Assembly: GCF_025602895.1 (NCBI RefSeq)
Contig: NW_026516269.1
Coordinates: forward strand, 186,001 to 250,000
Reading direction: 5' to 3'
DNA from: Polychytrium aggregatum
Lineage: Eukaryota > Chytridiomycota > Chytridiomycetes > Polychytriales
Length of the DNA: 64,000 bases
Within the stretch, counting starts at the first letter, position 1, and every line of letters starts with the position of its first letter. Below the pieces are notes generated by a model, which searched no databases, was not told the DNA's origin, and saw only the letters and a program-made list of their open reading frames with translations. The position numbers and the translations under genes are program-made. Below are positions 35,691 to 57,993 of the stretch, piece after piece.

Positions 35691-36546
35691 GGTCATGGGA
35701 AGTGGTGTGTCCACCACTCTGTGTAGGCAATCCGCAATTGAGGTTCAGTGCTCCGTGTGATGTTGAGAGGGCTGTGCGGAACAGCAAGTTCAGGCAGAAG
35801 GTTTGTGTCCGGTGGAGCCGCTTCTGTTCGTTCTTTGGGATGGCGTCGAGGGCGTGCCCGTATTCCATCATTGGCCGCAGGAACGTGCGGTATGCAATCG
35901 TTAGGGTCTTGGCCGTGAGGTTTCCAAGGGTCTGGCCCATCTTGGCCATGTTGGATGCTGCTTCTCTTGTCCTGGTCACCATTCGGTCCTGGCAGATCGT
36001 CGATGAAGGCGCTGAACATGAGTGGGCTCAGCACTGATCCGTGGATCAGTCCTTTCTGGAGCCATACTGGCTTGGATCTTCTGCCCTTGCTGACCATTTG
36101 GATGGATACCCGGTCAAACATGGCTTTGAGGAAGCCGAGGGCGATGCCGTTCATTCCTCGCTGCTTGAGCTTGGTCCACAGTCGCTCGCGCCATACGGTG
36201 TCATAGGCGGCCTTGGTGTCGAGGAAGATCAGAGAGTACTCCTCGCCGTTCATCTTGTGGTGCTTGATCAGGGTGTCCCCAAGCCTGTGTGTGATGGATA
36301 TGATGGTGAATTGTTTGTGGAGATCGTTGATGGCGATAACCGGTGCGACATTGATGGGTCCCGGAAGTTGGGATAACATCTCGATGGATCGAGGCTTTGG
36401 ATCGTCCAGACGGTTTCCTCTGGGACCTGGTGGAATGTGACAGATGGAAGGGAGGACCAGATATGGCTGGGATCAATAGACTCGAGCGACTCCTTGTGAT
36501 TCAACAGGTGAATTGACATGTATTTACTCTTCTGGGCCTTGGCCAC
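35691..36546 (-). mobile_element. Non-LTR reverse transcriptase relic 2 with internal deletion and frameshifts
   Basis: Minus-strand pieces in order: a segment ending VPEETVWTIQSLDPS, then in another frame PVIAINDLHKQF, RT motif A (YSLIFLDTKAAYDTVW), RVSIQMVSKGRRSKPVWLQK, GLIHGSVLSPLMFSAFIDDL. After another shift comes RTFLRPMMEYGHALDAIPK. The YADD-containing stretch between FIDDL and the thumb is missing. At least two frame changes and one deletion make it non-functional. Confidence 0.88.
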
Positions 36547-37181: not shown

Positions 37182-40100
37182 ATGCTCCCGCACGCATCAC
37201 GGTGGCTCCTGGCCTGGTGTTTGGCCGCATCGCTTTGCTTCCGATGTGCAGGTATGGCTGTTTGCATAATTTCCGTCCAGGCTGCATCCACCCCTTCGCG
37301 ACTGTCATTACCTATGCGCTCAGTAACCTGAGTAATCTTCTCGTTCTGCGCATAACCGCGACAGACGGATGGGTCCTGGTCGAGCCGATACTCCTAGGTG
37401 TTGGTGCGGATGCCCCGACGGAGGTTTACTCGGCACTAGCCAACTACTACTCAACCTACGATCCATACTTCAACTATGCCTACACTGGAATCGGCTCCGG
37501 AGCGGGTCGTGCGGCCCTCGTCGCCGGATCGACCAACTTGACCTGGGCAGCGTCCGATAGCGTGCCCTCCAATGTCACATTTGTCGGACCTGGGAACATT
37601 GTCGGGCAGTTTGTCCCAGTCCCCTCAGTCATAGGGCAAGTACATCCTCCTTGATTTCCTGGGCGGAATCTGTCGGTTGCTCACTGTTTCTTGGATGCAC
37701 GCAACCATCGTGCGACCACCAGAGCCATGCATTGACACGATCCCTGACATCCCGATCCTATTCAGCTCCGTGGCCGTCATCTATCACTTGAATGTCACCA
37801 ATCTTACGCTCACGCGGCAAAATGTCGCCGATATCTTCACCGGGAAGGTTGTCTACTGGAACGACACTCGGCTGGTTCAGCACAACCCTGCACTGACCTC
37901 CATCAACGCGCGTATCCAGGTCATCGCCATTAGCGGTTCCTCTGGAATTGCCTCCAATTTTCTATATGCTCTCAACAGCATCGACCCAACTCTGAACTTG
38001 GGCAACTCCCTGTCGTACCCGCTTTCGACATGGGGCCCGGCCACTGCAGCATTCTACGGCTCCAGCAACACAATGGTCTCGGACGGCATCCAGGTCACTC
38101 CGTACTCGATCGGCTTTGTCGACTACCCGTCGGCCTCGACAACCCTGGCCTCTCTCGCCTCAGGGCTGAACCTGTATGCCATCGCAAACATCATCAACCG
38201 CAACGGCGATGTCGTTGCCCCATCCATATACACGATGTCGGTGAGTTTCCAACAGCTGTACTGATAAACCAGCGACCGTGAGAAACTCTATCTGCGGACA
38301 ACACCGCTTGAGCGATAAATTGGCAAGGGCATGACCGGCAGTCCAATCATACGCATGTGTCCCTGAGCGGCCAGTCAGCTCACTGGACATCGATCACCCA
38401 TTCTCCCTTATTTCCTCATCAGAATGCCCTTTCCACAGCAAGCACCACAAACGTTTCGTCTCTGCGACACTTCTCGGGCGACATCGGCACATACATTCGC
38501 TCGACCTACATCGACACCACCACGCCAAATGCATATCCGTTCATGGAACCGTCTTTTATTCTCCTTCGGCAAGACTCCCAGCCCTACAGCATCGCCGAAG
38601 CTCAAATGCGTGCCACACTTCGTTTCCTCTTCTGGATGCTCTTTGGCGGGACAGAGACGGTGGGTAATCCGCGACATACTATGAACGGCTTGTGCAAGTG
38701 TCTGTCTATGGTGATTCTGTACGGCAGATCGATCTGAGTATGTGTGAACTGGTGGCCCTAACGCCATATATGTGTCTGGCCATCATCCTTCAGCAACCCT
38801 CGAATCGATCGACAGCATCGCCTTCAACCGGCTCCTTCTATCTTCAAAACAAATACATGCATCTCCAGGATCCCGATTTTCGACGCTTTGCGTATGATGC
38901 ACTCAAACTGGTCACCCAAAACGGAAAGGTGCTCTTTGATGCATCTTCTCCATGCAATCCGCACTTTGACGCTAATGGGACCTATATAACCGCCAACTCC
39001 TGCAAGCACGGGTACTGCGTCGTCGATGGTCCGTTTCAAGACTCCTCAGTGACTCGGTGCATCTGCGATGCTTGATTCATGAACAACATGCAACTGGATT
39101 GCTCTGAGCCATCCGCGCCATTCATGATCCTCTTTTACGGCGTCGAGTCCTACAACACTGCCATTATGGCGTTCCTGAGCATCACTGGGCTCATCAACGC
39201 CGCCATCCTGGCCATGCTGTTCGTATTTCGAGAAAAGCCAAACATCAAAGCTATTTCGCCGAATTGTTGCTACATAATCGTTGTCGGGGCCCGTAAGTTG
39301 AGTCGACGCACATTTTTTTGGAACCCGACAGCCAGAGCCGAGCTCAAGGTGGAAGTGCGCCATCAGTTCAAGCGAAGGCCGTGATACTACCCGGAGTTTT
39401 GATCTGACTTTTGTTGGTATCGGTTCTAGTTTTTGGTCAAATCGGCGCACTATTCTATTCCGCCGAGCCCAGCACCTTGGTTTGCTCCAGCCGGATGTTC
39501 TTCCCGGTCATTGCCTTCTCCTCAATCTTCAGGTTTGTTGTCGTAAGAGGATCATTATCCCCCCCCCAAAGCTCGAGAGATATCTTCTCTTTCATGAGCC
39601 CTCGCACTGCCTGTCGGCTTGGATGATAGCCGCATGCTCGCTCGCTCACTCGCTGACTGCTGGTACTCTTTCTTGCCGCCAAACTGCATGCAGCATGCTC
39701 TTGATGAAGTCTGTGCGGATCTACATGATCTTTGAAAACCGACGCATGCGCGTCTTCAAGACGCCGGACTGGAAACTCATCCTCGCGACGCTTGTCGCGT
39801 TGGTTGCCGAGATTGTGGTGTGTGCGGCATGGGTTGCCGTGGAAGGCCCCACGGCCGAGGTCGAGGGCAGTTTCTACGGGCTGGTATGCACGGCGACGTT
39901 TTCGTCCACGGTGGTGCCCGAGATTGTCCTCTACGTCATCAACGGAGCCATCATGCTCGGGTGTGTGGCCTTTGCCTATCTCACCCGCGGTGCTCACGAG
40001 CGCTTCCAAGAGTCCAAGGTCATTGGCATATGCAGCTACATGGTCTCCCTGACGTTGGTGCTGTGCCTTCCGATCGTCTACATTCTCTCCGGAAGCTTGG

Positions 40101-40924
40101 ACTCGCAAGCACTCTTCACCGTGGGCCGCGTGATCCTGGCTTGCTTGATCATCACGATCTCGTCGTTTGTCCCTGCAGCGCTGTTTGCAGGCAGGATCAT
40201 CGGCGCCCTCCGCTCTGACCCTGGCGAAGATGAAAAGTCGGGAGCCCCCAAACCCATGCACACATCAGATAATTCCAGCATCCAAAGTCAGGGCATGTTG
40301 TCTGCAGACATTGTCACCTACGTATATGACTGCGGCGTCCAAGGTCTCAAGTTTGGAGGTGCCTGGGTGTCATCGACTGTCCTGGTGTTTGTCACCCTGG
40401 ACATCATCGAATTTCGTGATCCCAGTCTCGACGGCCCCATCCAGGCAAGCTTCCGCTTCTCGGCATGTGGATGCGAGCTCTGTGACCCCGAATCAGATCC
40501 CGAAGGTGGCAAAGCACTTGCCCGAAGCGTCAAGCTCCGAAACAGCAAGTCTCAGCTCACGCTCGAGTTCGGATCAAAGGAGACAGCACTGACGTTTTTG
40601 AACAACTTCAAGGAAGCCAAAGCCAAGCCTCGTAATTCCAAAGTCAAGGAATCGGGGCCCTCGGTGACCTCGGAGGACAATTGGGGCATATCGCCAACGG
40701 AATCCTGGGCAATCTTGAAAGGCCCAGCACCGCCACGAACCGAAAGTGCAAAACGATCGTTAATCAGGAGTCTGGGGACGTCAGCGCATCTGGAACAAAC
40801 GATCGAATCATTGCTTCTAGATTTGACGAAAGCATCGACAGCCAGAGGAGCTGAATCAAACCAGGAATATGTGGTCATGGTGGATAGAACTCCGGTTTTC
40901 AATTACATGGGGGGCTTTACTTGA
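37182..40924 (+). CDS. PstS-type phosphate-binding ectodomain + EGF-like + class C GPCR 7TM fusion, with in-frame TGA
   Basis: Exons 37182-37251, 37365-37639, 37725-38240, 38423-38659, 38794-39292, 39430-39532, 39694-40924 close in phase (977 codons including an internal TGA at 39073). Exon 1 is a signal peptide (RWLLAWCLAASLCFRC). Codons 35-400 resemble PstS/PBP_like_2: GVGADAPTEVYSALANYY, GIGSGAGRAAL, ADIFTGKVVYWNDTRL, SGSSGIASNFLYAL, YSIGFVDYPSAS. Cys spacing at codons 420-470 (SCKHGYC...RCIC...C) is EGF-like. Then come seven helices with class C marks: IKAISPNCCYIIVVGA, TLVCSSR before TM3, KSVRIYMIFENRRM, GLVC in loop 2. A cytosolic tail of about 230 residues follows. It probably acts as a plasma-membrane sensor for phosphate or an anion (inference). 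The exon 2/3 join is the weakest. Confidence 0.83.
39073..39075 (+). other. In-frame TGA inside the EGF-like module of the PstS-GPCR gene
   Basis: The frame reads ATC TGC GAT GCT TGA TTC ATG AAC AAC ATG CAA CTG GAT TGC. Coding character continues on both sides in the same frame, and the Cys of the next codons completes the EGF-like pattern. A Gly codon (GGA) would be normal here. The nearest frame-compatible splice (GTCGTC at about 39022 to CTGAG) has a poor donor and would delete half of the module. Confidence 0.85.
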
Positions 40925-41280: not shown

Positions 41281-41625
41281 GGAAGGTGGCTACATGCCTC
41301 CTTCCCTGATGGCTCCCCACGATGTGCTTCGGACCACTTTGAACAGCGCCGTGAGGCAGTGCATCTGGGTTCGGTTGAGTGTCTTGGCTTGTTTGGCTTC
41401 GAGCAGATCGAGGGACAGAGCATACTCCATCGTCGGTCGGACAAAGGTCTTGTAGACCCGCACCAGCGATCTGGCGGTCATGTTGCCGAGGGTGTATCCT
41501 TGCTTTGCGATCCGTTGGGCCACTACTTGGGCTGTCGCCGTCATCCTCTGGATCTGTCGGTCCATCTGGAGGCCGTTGACGTCGAAGGTGGCTCCGAGGT
41601 ACTTGAACTCCTTGGTCGGTTCAAG
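41281..41625 (-). mobile_element. Non-LTR reverse transcriptase relic 3
   Basis: On the minus strand: TKEFKYLGATFDVNGLQMDR, SLVRVYKTFVRPTMEYALSL and NRTQMHCLTALFKVVRSTSW. It corresponds to the same post-palm region as relic 1 but with different sequence, so it is a separate copy or subfamily. It lacks the catalytic domain. Confidence 0.85.
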
Positions 41626-54900: not shown

Positions 54901-57900
54901 TGCCCCCGATGCAGAAGATGGTCGCCCAGATCTTCAAGGAAGCGCTTGAGCTCGACCACATCCCTGGCGCCGGCGACGACTTTTTCGAGTTGGGTGGCAA
55001 TTCGCTGACAGCCGGTCGACTTGCCTCGTTGATCAGGTAAGCCCCTCACCGTCCAGCAACTCCTGGTCGTTTCAGTTCGCCATATTGACTGTATCGCCAC
55101 GCATTCTTTGGCTGTTCAGAAAACGCTTCGATGTCACCATCGCCGCCATGATGTTCTTCCAGAGCCGCACGGTCGAGCAGATTGCCGGCTTGATCTCCGA
55201 GATGCTCCCTGCCGACTTTGTTATGGAAGAGTCCGAGATGGGCGCCGCCAAGAACCGCCCGCCCCGCCCTCGCAAGCCCAGCCCGGCAAAGTCGTCTGTG
55301 GCGCCCGTGACCCTCTTTATCCAGGCCCTGCCCTTTTTCTTCGGCCCGTGCAAGGTCGTCCTCCAGTGGATCACGTTCGCCTACGGCCTCAAGCTGCTCG
55401 AGTTCATCTATGGCATCTTTTTCGATCAGCGCCGTACCCCGGCCATCCGCACGCTCATGGTCATCCTGTCGCTGATTGGCACCAAGCTGTCGTTCTGGAC
55501 GATTCTGCCCATCCTGGGTATCCTCACCAAGTGGATCATCATCGGTCGCTACAAGGCCGGCAGGTGCGTTTTGCTTCCCCCTCACCCTATCGTGTCTAGG
55601 GTCACACCGTGCTTCATCGCGATTCCCTTCTGGTCTGTGATCAATTGCGCCGCTCGCTGACAAGTACTTCTTTCTGATCCGCCATCTCTCTCCGACACAG
55701 CTACCCTCTCTGGGGCTCCTATTACCTGCGCTGGTGGTGGGTCGACCAGGTGCTCAACCTGTGCGGCCACGGCATCTTTGGCGGCACCAACTTTAGCCGT
55801 GTTCTCTACTTGCGGTTGATGGGTGCCTCCATCGGCAAGAACGTGCACATCGACTCCATGACCAACATCCGCGAGTTTGACCTCGTTCGCATCGGCCATG
55901 GCTGTGCCTTTGACACGAGCCGTGTCCGCCCCTTCACCATGGAGACCGGCAAGATGGTGCTGATGCCCATCCGGATCGGCCACTACTGCGTCGTCAACGT
56001 CAGCACCGTCATTGCCCCTGGCGCCACCGTGCCAAACAACACCGTCTTCCCGCCCCTGTCGTCCTCGTACGAGCTGGAGGATGCCTCGACAAAGTACACG
56101 CCCCTTTGCCGAACGACAGCGCCCTCGCCCAACCTTTTCGTCAAGGCCCTGCTCGGCTATCCCATCCTCTTCCTCGTGTGGTTCATATCCTCGATGCCGT
56201 GGATGTTTGTGCTCAACCGTATCGCCCAAGTTCCCTTCACTCCCGATAACTCCCTGACCACATCCTTTGCCGAGATCCTGCTCTTTTTCGGCAACCCGGC
56301 CCGTGTGGGTCTCCACATGGCTGCCGTGTGCTGCAACCAAGTTCTCAGCCCGATCGTTGGCCTGCTATGCTGCATCGTCATCAAGCGTGTCTTTATCGGC
56401 AAGTTCAAGGCCGGGCCGCGCAAGATCACCCAGCTCAACCTGCTGCGCTACTGGCTCATGGAGGAGCTGCTCGGCGACGGCACCTTCCGCGGCGTCTCGG
56501 CCCTGATCGGCAAGCACTACGAGCTCACTAGCATCATCTACCGCGCCCTGGGCTCCCGCGTCGGCAAGCGCATCTACTGGCCGGGCACGCCCGTCAAGGT
56601 CTATGAGTTTGATCTGTTTGAGGTCGGCAACGACGTCGTCTTTGGCTCCCGCTCGCACATTGCCAACTCGGACCACTTCCAGAGCGCCAAGATCATCATC
56701 CGCTCGGGCGCCATGTTGGCCGATCGCTGTGTGCTGCTGCCGGGCTGCACCATCGGCCGTAACTGCGTCATGGGATCGGGCGGTCTCGGCAAGGCCTTCA
56801 CGTACTATCCGGACGGATCGATCTGGATCGGCTCCAAGAACGGCGGCGCCACTCTCTGGGACGCCGGCGACCCGGTTGCCGCCCGCTCCCAAGACACCCG
56901 CACCCCATTCGCCCGCGCCTTCTATATGGGCACGGCCAACTTTTTCGTCCTGCCCGAGGCCATCTGCATCCTCTACAGCACCTTCTTCGAGGCCTTCACG
57001 GGCTGCTACTGGACGATGGGCATCACCGGCGCCGCCATGATCGGCCGCATCGCGGTCATGCACAACTGGTTCGGCAACAACATCACCTACCTGTCGTACT
57101 TTTGGCCGCTGTTCTTCTTTGCCACCGCGACGGGCACCTTCCAGGTCCTCAGCTTCGGCGCCCTGTTCATCACCATCGCCATGAAGTGGATGACCATGGG
57201 CAGACGCAAGGTCGGCCGCTACGACTGGGACCTGTCCTCGTACTGCCAGCGCTGGCAGATCATGCTGGGAGCACAGTCGATCCGCCACGGCCTCCTCGAT
57301 CGCATCCGCGGCTCCTGGTACATTGTTGCCTTTTTCCGGGCTCTCGGCGCCAAGGTCGGCAAGCGTGTGTGTCTGTACCCGACCGGCGGCGATCCCATGA
57401 TGACCGAGCCCGACCTGACGACCTTTGGAGACGACGTTGCCCTCGACCGGGCCAGTGTCGTGTGCCACATCAACAGCAAGGGCCAGTTTGCGCTCAACCC
57501 GCTGGTCATCGGCAGCGGCGCCGTGCTCCGGGCCTACTCGCGCCTGCTCTCGGGTGCCGAAATGGAGGAGGACTCGACCCTCCTCGAGCACACCCTCGTC
57601 ATCAGTGGCGACATTATCGAGGCCGGCACTGTCTGGCAGGGCTGGCCATCGTCCGAAGTCACCCCGAAGGCCCCCGTCATCCCGGCCCGCAAGAACACCG
57701 ACGGCAAGGCGACGCTTGGCCGAGACGACCGAGCCGGCACCATTCGCGGCTCTGCTCGCTCCACCAGCCGCGCCGGCACCCCGAACACAGGCTCGGTGAC
57801 TCGCCAAGGCACACTCCCTCATCGCGGCCAGAGCATGTCCCGCAGCAAGTCCAACACCCGCGAACGACCGATCCGCGGCCAGTCCGACTCTGCGGAGCAA

Positions 57901-57993
57901 GACCGAGAAGGCGGCCAGCGCAGAACTCGCCGCTACCGCTACTCGCAGTTCCACGGCACCTTCAAGCGCTCGACGGCTGTCCAGGGTCGCTGA
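51962..57993 (+). CDS. Pls-like NRPS: adenylation-thiolation plus membrane-embedded tandem C-terminal domains, 8 exons
   Basis: Exons 51962-52315, 52584-52874, 53035-53458, 53641-53832, 53988-54192, 54392-55036, 55120-55563, 55701-57993 give 1,615 aa. The adenylation domain (1-550) has LLRTSGTSGNKKT (about 181-193), LPSYGMTE and FFDTGDMGYMDKEGYL. A second adenylation C-subdomain-like unit follows (VKEAAVLPNPDG; PKLPRFSDGELDYDAL, about 555-650). The carrier site is DDFFELGGNSLTAGRL (Ser about 692). Then come three pairs of membrane helices (about 770-845, 990-1090, 1265-1350), each followed by a hexapeptide-like module (GASIGKNVHIDS; GSRVGKRIYWPG...GCTIGRNCVMGSGG; GAKVGKRVCLYP). This A-T-(2TM-C)x3 order is that of epsilon-poly-L-lysine synthetase. 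Pls makes isopeptide-linked homopolymers without condensation domains. The monomer here is not deducible. The basic Arg/Ser tail is an extra. Confidence 0.9.

Follow-up and report, generated by a model that had tools for sequence, protein, structure and literature searches.

Does a single fungal gene join a bacterial phosphate-binding domain to a G protein-coupled receptor, and if so does its product sense phosphate? The question is raised by a locus of the chytrid Polychytrium aggregatum, at 37182-40924 on the + strand of a 64,000-nucleotide stretch of DNA that we analysed whole and call the window (positions 186,001 to 250,000 of contig NW_026516269.1, assembly GCF_025602895.1). An initial annotation had read the locus as one open protein, a PstS-type binding domain fused to a class C receptor that would sense phosphate or another anion directly. 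We think it likely that the locus is a truncated member of an expanded family of PstS-type class C receptors, and that the clade to which it belongs has lost the phosphate pocket and has probably changed its ligand.

Both halves of the fusion were recovered with Pfam profiles, as had been anticipated. The piece 5' of an in-frame stop codon, to which we return below, matches PBP_like_2 over residues 24-323 (E = 3e-16; 60.4 bits against a curated cut-off of 27), and the piece 3' of it matches 7tm_3 (3.6e-35; 122.3 bits, curated cut-off 33.5), the class C seven-helix domain, which spans introns at 39151-40174. Among the best 60 of 71 PDB chain sequences matched by this domain at E <= 0.001, metabotropic glutamate receptors are its nearest relatives of solved structure (mGlu2, 3e-13). 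By these matches the large extracellular Venus flytrap of the locus appears to be a PBP_like_2 domain, not one of the ANF type. Between the two domains is a module (approximately 38953-39102) that had been called EGF-like; the label is supported by the cysteines of the module and by its alignment with the counterpart in a paralogue, L028, which matches EGF (PF00008, 1.7e-5); in the window the module itself matches no Pfam family. In three proteins scanned there was no match to NCD3G at E up to 1, and the paralogue has EGF at that place; the NCD3G linker is also missing in GABA-B receptors, and so is not universal among class C receptors.

The fusion of PBP_like_2 to 7tm_3 is the normal state of a family in this genome, because one paralogue reads through it without interruption and because the two domains are paired on the same strand at every copy. 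The paralogue, L028 on contig C365, is a frame of 1084 residues that matches PBP_like_2 at 5.7e-24 and 7tm_3 at 2.3e-38 in addition to EGF. Across the genome (64.7 Mb in 418 contigs, all counts of profile matches being lower bounds) there are at least 28 matches to PBP_like_2 and at least 58 to 7tm_3; of 14 prokaryote control genomes, 13 matched the former profile, as expected of a bacterial family, and none the latter. Each of the 28 PBP_like_2 matches has a 7tm_3 match 424-1866 bases downstream on the same strand, for which the chance expectation is approximately 0.0015 per match. Of the 48 clusters into which the 7tm_3 matches group, 20 lack PBP_like_2. By our own grouping the 28 copies fall into approximately 13 groups of near-identical copies. 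Gene models cover 19 of the 28, and all 19 keep the order binding domain, EGF-like module, seven helices; the frame from flytrap to seven helices is open in 15, the exceptions being two copies on contig C35 together with the window copy and its presumed allele, which carry the stop. The fusion described by the initial annotation is thus borne out for both halves, and in one frame in L028, but in the window itself that frame is broken by a TGA.

Contig C35 bears four PBP_like_2 copies in two clusters, at 246-254 kb and 924-932 kb, and two of the contig's copies (C35a and C35b) have one frameshift each. Contigs C410 (59579 +, 135287 -) and C412 (59797 +, 135655 -) each carry a pair of oppositely oriented receptor copies, an arrangement that a large inverted duplication or a palindromic assembly would give. 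Five equal-scoring 7tm_3 matches (59.5 bits, positions 5-131) on contigs C210, C334, C359 (two) and C104 have no PBP_like_2 upstream, and perhaps represent another class C receptor group. The ratio of nonsynonymous to synonymous substitution rates (dN/dS) is 0.13-0.18 among distant family members, where the synonymous rate dS is saturated, and is 0.33 for C410 against C39 and 0.40 for C335 against C380.

The binding domain of L028 matches E. coli PstS (1qui) at 1.2e-18, and all 17 PDB sequences that it matches have phosphate-binding or phosphate-transport names. To compare the pocket, 19 fungal rows were aligned with residues 3-197 of E. coli PstS (a variant chain with G at 137), and we followed the eight positions that we take to be the phosphate ligands of PstS: T10, F11, S38, D56, R135, S139, G140 and T141, letters that agree with the aligned chain. 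Outside the window clade F11, S38, D56, S139, G140 and T141 are present in all 12 fungal rows and R135 in 11 (H in C62), with T or S at position 10 in 11 of the 12, the remaining row not covering the site. The bacterial rows likewise have T or S at 10 together with F11, R135 and T141 in seven of seven, and one of them (L043) has A at 139. The window clade is formed by seven rows (the window, C113a, C35c, C382a, C323, C410 and C39). In every one of them position 10 reads D or N, position 11 reads A, P or T, position 135 reads I or N, and position 141 reads I, M or L. In the window copy these are D, A, I and I, with S38, D56, S139 and G140 kept; C323 has in addition T at 38 and V at 139, and C39 has A at 139. 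The clade is supported at 100/99 in the tree of the whole protein and at 100/98 in a tree of the binding domain with seven bacterial rows, where it is nested. Since the bacterial rows keep the residues and the clade is nested, we conclude that the full pocket is the ancestral state and that its loss, in the window clade, was a single event.

This loss is concentrated on the ligand positions. In a conservation control with near-identical rows removed (keeping 5 of 7 clade, 9 of 12 other fungal and 5 of 7 bacterial rows), 41 columns were at least 75% conserved outside the clade, and the four of these that had changed in at least four of the five clade rows were all ligand columns (4 of 8 ligand, 0 of 33 other). 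With conservation set at 85%, changes fell on 3 of 7 ligand columns and on 0 of 30 others. The pattern argues that the pocket was dismantled as the rest of the binding fold stayed constrained. That the binding domain was recently acquired from a bacterium was also considered and seems unlikely: six bacterial loci are 23-30% identical, and the fungal rows all stand on one side of a 100/100 branch. The search behind those six loci was not exhaustive, its first form having given no relative and its second having used two patterns.

In class C receptors, closure of the flytrap is passed by a linker to the seven transmembrane helices and from there to a G protein, and we hypothesize that the present family follows this scheme. 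Its layout is a PstS-type Venus flytrap, an EGF-like module, a glutamate-family seven-helix domain and a conserved cytoplasmic tail; a ligand would close the flytrap, the linker would pass that closure to the helices, and these would activate a heterotrimeric G protein, with no transport involved. Where the PstS pocket is kept, phosphate or a similar anion is the natural candidate ligand, and such members are plausibly sensors of it. For members of the window clade it is most likely that they bind something else, or that they act as ligandless partner subunits. Known phosphate sensing in fungi consists of transporter-receptors and the internal PHO pathway, and to our knowledge no G protein-coupled receptor for extracellular phosphate has been characterised in fungi. 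With members of full and of dismantled PstS pocket built on one receptor frame in one genome, the family offers a natural test set, in which the full-pocket members suit tests of anion sensing and the pocket-less members tests of ligand switching or of heterodimers. The family also bears on how class C receptors came to acquire different binding domains of bacterial type.

The locus itself can be read as seven + strand exons, set by eye against a paralogue, and the claim that they close in phase holds for all six introns, which have AG acceptors and either GT (five) or GC (one) donors. Exon 1 (37182-37251) contains the start codon and a hydrophobic stretch that, judged by eye, resembles the signal peptide described before. 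The PstS-type domain begins in exon 2 (37398-37635), with ligand positions 10, 11, 38 and 56, and the intron that follows has the GC donor. Exon 3 (37766-38240) continues the domain, with positions 135 and 141 (both I) and with the two motifs that had been quoted, ADIFTGKVVYWNDTRL and YSIGFVDYPS, both found in the translation; the PBP_like_2 match ends in exon 4 (38423-38659), at approximately 38608. Exon 5 (38794-39292) encodes the linker, the EGF-like cysteine module and the first helices, exon 6 (39430-39532) a further part of the seven-helix domain with a cysteine aligned to that of the third transmembrane helix of mGlu2, and exon 7 (39694-40924) the remaining helices and the cytoplasmic tail, where the genome-wide profile search places 7tm_3 at 39683-40174. 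A spliced aligner of our own making, fed only with the protein of that paralogue, reproduced introns 4, 5 and 6 as well as the stop; it placed introns 2 and 3 otherwise, stopped short of exon 1 and inserted a spurious intron at the 3' end. GC-AG introns make up one of six in the window gene (at 37636) and occur once each in nine of the 19 automatic models (C16, C212, C335, C369, C380, C410, C39, C62 and C35b), a frequency that seems above the usual.

The spliced reading has 950 codons, and codon 434 is a TGA (39073-39075) that interrupts the EGF-like module, 3' of the ligand domain and 5' of the seven helices. This stop had been overlooked, and the single open protein once proposed for the locus is not borne out. 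Because the stop falls between the two domains, the copy as sequenced should be unable to make a receptor and would encode only a secreted binding domain, of 433 residues with a signal-peptide-like start and PBP_like_2. The same TGA is present in a copy on contig C113 that is 99.4% identical over 6.5 kb and is presumed to be an allele, and the near-identical copies on contigs C35 and C382 (approximately 95.7%) have a sense codon at that position. Reassignment of TGA was considered and is unlikely, an in-frame stop being found in only the window and its presumed allele among the 19 models, in which the aligner can hide a stop inside an intron.

Over 38241-39693 of the window, introns 3 to 6 differ from those of L018 at 0, 2, 0 and 0 sites and from those of L019 at 0, 0, 0 and 2, and the presumed allele differs at 6 sites in intron 3. 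Near-identity with the introns of other loci, set against the divergence of the presumed allele in intron 3, points to recent gene conversion between receptor loci. Neither the window copy nor its presumed allele has a further stop or frameshift after the TGA, and given such conversion the absence of other lesions says little for function. The probable readings of the window copy are a pseudogene of recent origin or a truncated form.

Several observations weigh against the reading that we favour. The absence of a second lesion after the stop fits a young or converted pseudogene and fits a truncated form in use as well. With exons fixed, comparison of the presumed alleles gives 10 nonsynonymous and 6 synonymous codon differences, of which 7 and 3 precede the stop and 3 and 3 follow it, and by this count recent constraint on the window locus seems weak; dN/dS of 0.70-0.75 between the window and its nearest copies is unreliable, because automatic models disagree at exon ends, and is superseded by the fixed-exon counts. 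The list of PstS ligands is one that we have presumed. Both trees carry long-branch warnings (C62, C113b, C35a and C365, none of them in the window clade), and the binding-domain tree carries a composition warning for E. coli PstS and L041. Finally, the Fisher probabilities for the conservation control (p = 0.0007 at 75% and 0.0045 at 85%) overstate independence and are a guide only, because the loss of the pocket is one event and the columns share its history.

It is conceivable, and we put it forward tentatively, that the pocket was dismantled once with the fold kept, leaving the window clade as non-phosphate receptors or as ligandless partners of phosphate-sensing siblings, in the manner of GABA-B receptors, and that the window locus is now a secreted soluble binding protein. 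We are more doubtful of a functional gene at the window locus, one that would have arisen by truncation of a receptor gene and whose secreted, soluble binding domain would act as a decoy or scavenger. The 433-residue product has a signal-peptide-like start and PBP_like_2 over residues 24-323, its stop is common to the presumed allele and the frame has no other lesion; yet the stop breaks the EGF-like module, the 7 nonsynonymous and 3 synonymous differences between the presumed alleles before it indicate no strong constraint, and much of the gene barely differs from an intact paralogue, the state expected after gene conversion, which makes the absence of lesions weak evidence of use.

The notion, first proposed, that the window protein uses its PstS domain to bind phosphate and then signals through a G protein now seems improbable. 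The clear PBP_like_2 match in the window, the retention of S38, D56, S139 and G140, and the match of a full-pocket paralogue to PstS structures all speak for it, but the stop precedes the seven helices, and positions 10, 11, 135 and 141 are replaced in all seven rows of the clade. With four of eight ligand positions lost, the arginine among them, phosphate is an unlikely ligand for the window copy and for its clade.

Plasmodiophora brassicae, the organism for which the same architecture was read as a nutrient transporter, is a rhizarian and not a fungus. Its 7tm3 proteins are fused to SBP_bac_1 or PBP_like_2, each being one coding region by transcriptome according to the authors, who in the sections on these proteins call them transporters because the binding domain derives from bacterial transporters, name four of them phosphate transporters, and describe the fusions as absent from other eukaryotes and unique to the species (PMC4815078). 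The four are presumably those with PBP_like_2. These proteins resemble the present family in the joining of a binding domain to 7tm3, and differ in their label and their rhizarian origin. That the P. aggregatum proteins are transporters and not receptors we regard as very improbable, since their membrane part matches 7tm_3 and has mGlu2 as its best PDB match, since all 28 PBP_like_2 matches are tied to 7tm_3, and since the genome would supply the partners of a receptor: at least 80 exon-level matches to G-alpha, many of them weak (best 5.6e-57; 1 of 14 controls, below the cut-off), and at least 20 to RGS. Least credible of all are two unrelated adjoining genes or a chance assembly of exons, for which the in-frame stop dividing the halves in the window might be taken as a sign, and which are ruled out by the uninterrupted frame of L028, the 28 of 28 pairing and the constant domain order in 19 modelled copies of the 28.

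The pairing had been thought uncharacterised, and in this the initial annotation was mistaken, the architecture being already in print for P. brassicae (PMC4815078) and for a fungus. The class C receptor SPPG_06488 of Spizellomyces punctatus, also a chytrid protein of the glutamate family, carries an N-terminal PBP_like_2, and Allomyces receptors carry other binding-protein domains (Krishnan et al. 2012, PMC3251606). The part of that paper concerned names a single sequence and gives no analysis of the pocket, compared with the 28 copies, EGF-like linker, conserved tail and pocket-less clade described here. Class C receptors of anaerobic gut fungi similarly place a type II binding-protein fold on the seven helices, a few with EGF-like domains, but as discussed in their report these type II domains resemble binding proteins of sugar uptake and not PstS (PMC5168858). 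Metabotropic glutamate receptors share the seven-helix domain and the succession of flytrap, linker and helices, and differ in having an ANF/LIVBP-type flytrap with an NCD3G linker (in part PMC5168858), where this family has a PstS-type flytrap and an EGF-like one. Bacterial PstS (for example 1ixh and 8ods) shares the domain family and, with most paralogues here, the ligand residues, yet is a soluble transporter subunit that works with an ABC permease (PstC/PstA), in contrast to a domain fused to seven helices whose pocket is lost in the window clade. More broadly, glutamate-class homologues are enriched in Blastocladiomycota and Chytridiomycota according to a survey whose main text uses neither 'PBP' nor 'periplasmic' (PMC12842992), and other early-fungal class C receptors have been placed near GABA receptors, in the relevant section of a further report (PMC5705715). 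Our literature search, which excluded preprints and most subscription papers and judged most papers by their listings, found no paper on the ligand or pocket of PstS-type receptors. The architecture itself is known; new in this genome are the large family, the clade with a dismantled pocket and the truncated copy.

The cytoplasmic tail may hold a domain of its own. Some 115 residues past the seventh transmembrane helix (40286-40630 in the window) are conserved in 9 of 10 aligned paralogue tails, the tail of C62 being just 18% identical to that of the window. Weak matches were each obtained for one of ten members, to PH_29 (0.0025), PH (0.13) and WH1 (0.16), and the unrelated families Phage_blade (0.098) and DUF6226 (0.02) scored comparably; in the PDB the tail matches Ena/VASP EVH1 domains weakly (0.21). 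A PH-like fold is perhaps indicated.

The genome at large fits a zoosporic fungus, with at least 27 matches to Zn_clus and 4 to radial spoke 3. Near the locus, a reverse-transcriptase fragment (RVT_1, 1.5e-9) is found upstream at 35693-36472 on the - strand, and downstream at 41290-41625, also on the - strand, is a frame that by eye resembles the 3' part of such an element and has no Pfam match at 0.001. The match of the C35 and C382 copies to the window ends a few hundred bases beyond the gene. Further along the window, at 55750-57993 on the + strand, a frame of 747 residues contains hexapeptide transferase repeats of bacterial type (Hexapep, 2.1e-11).

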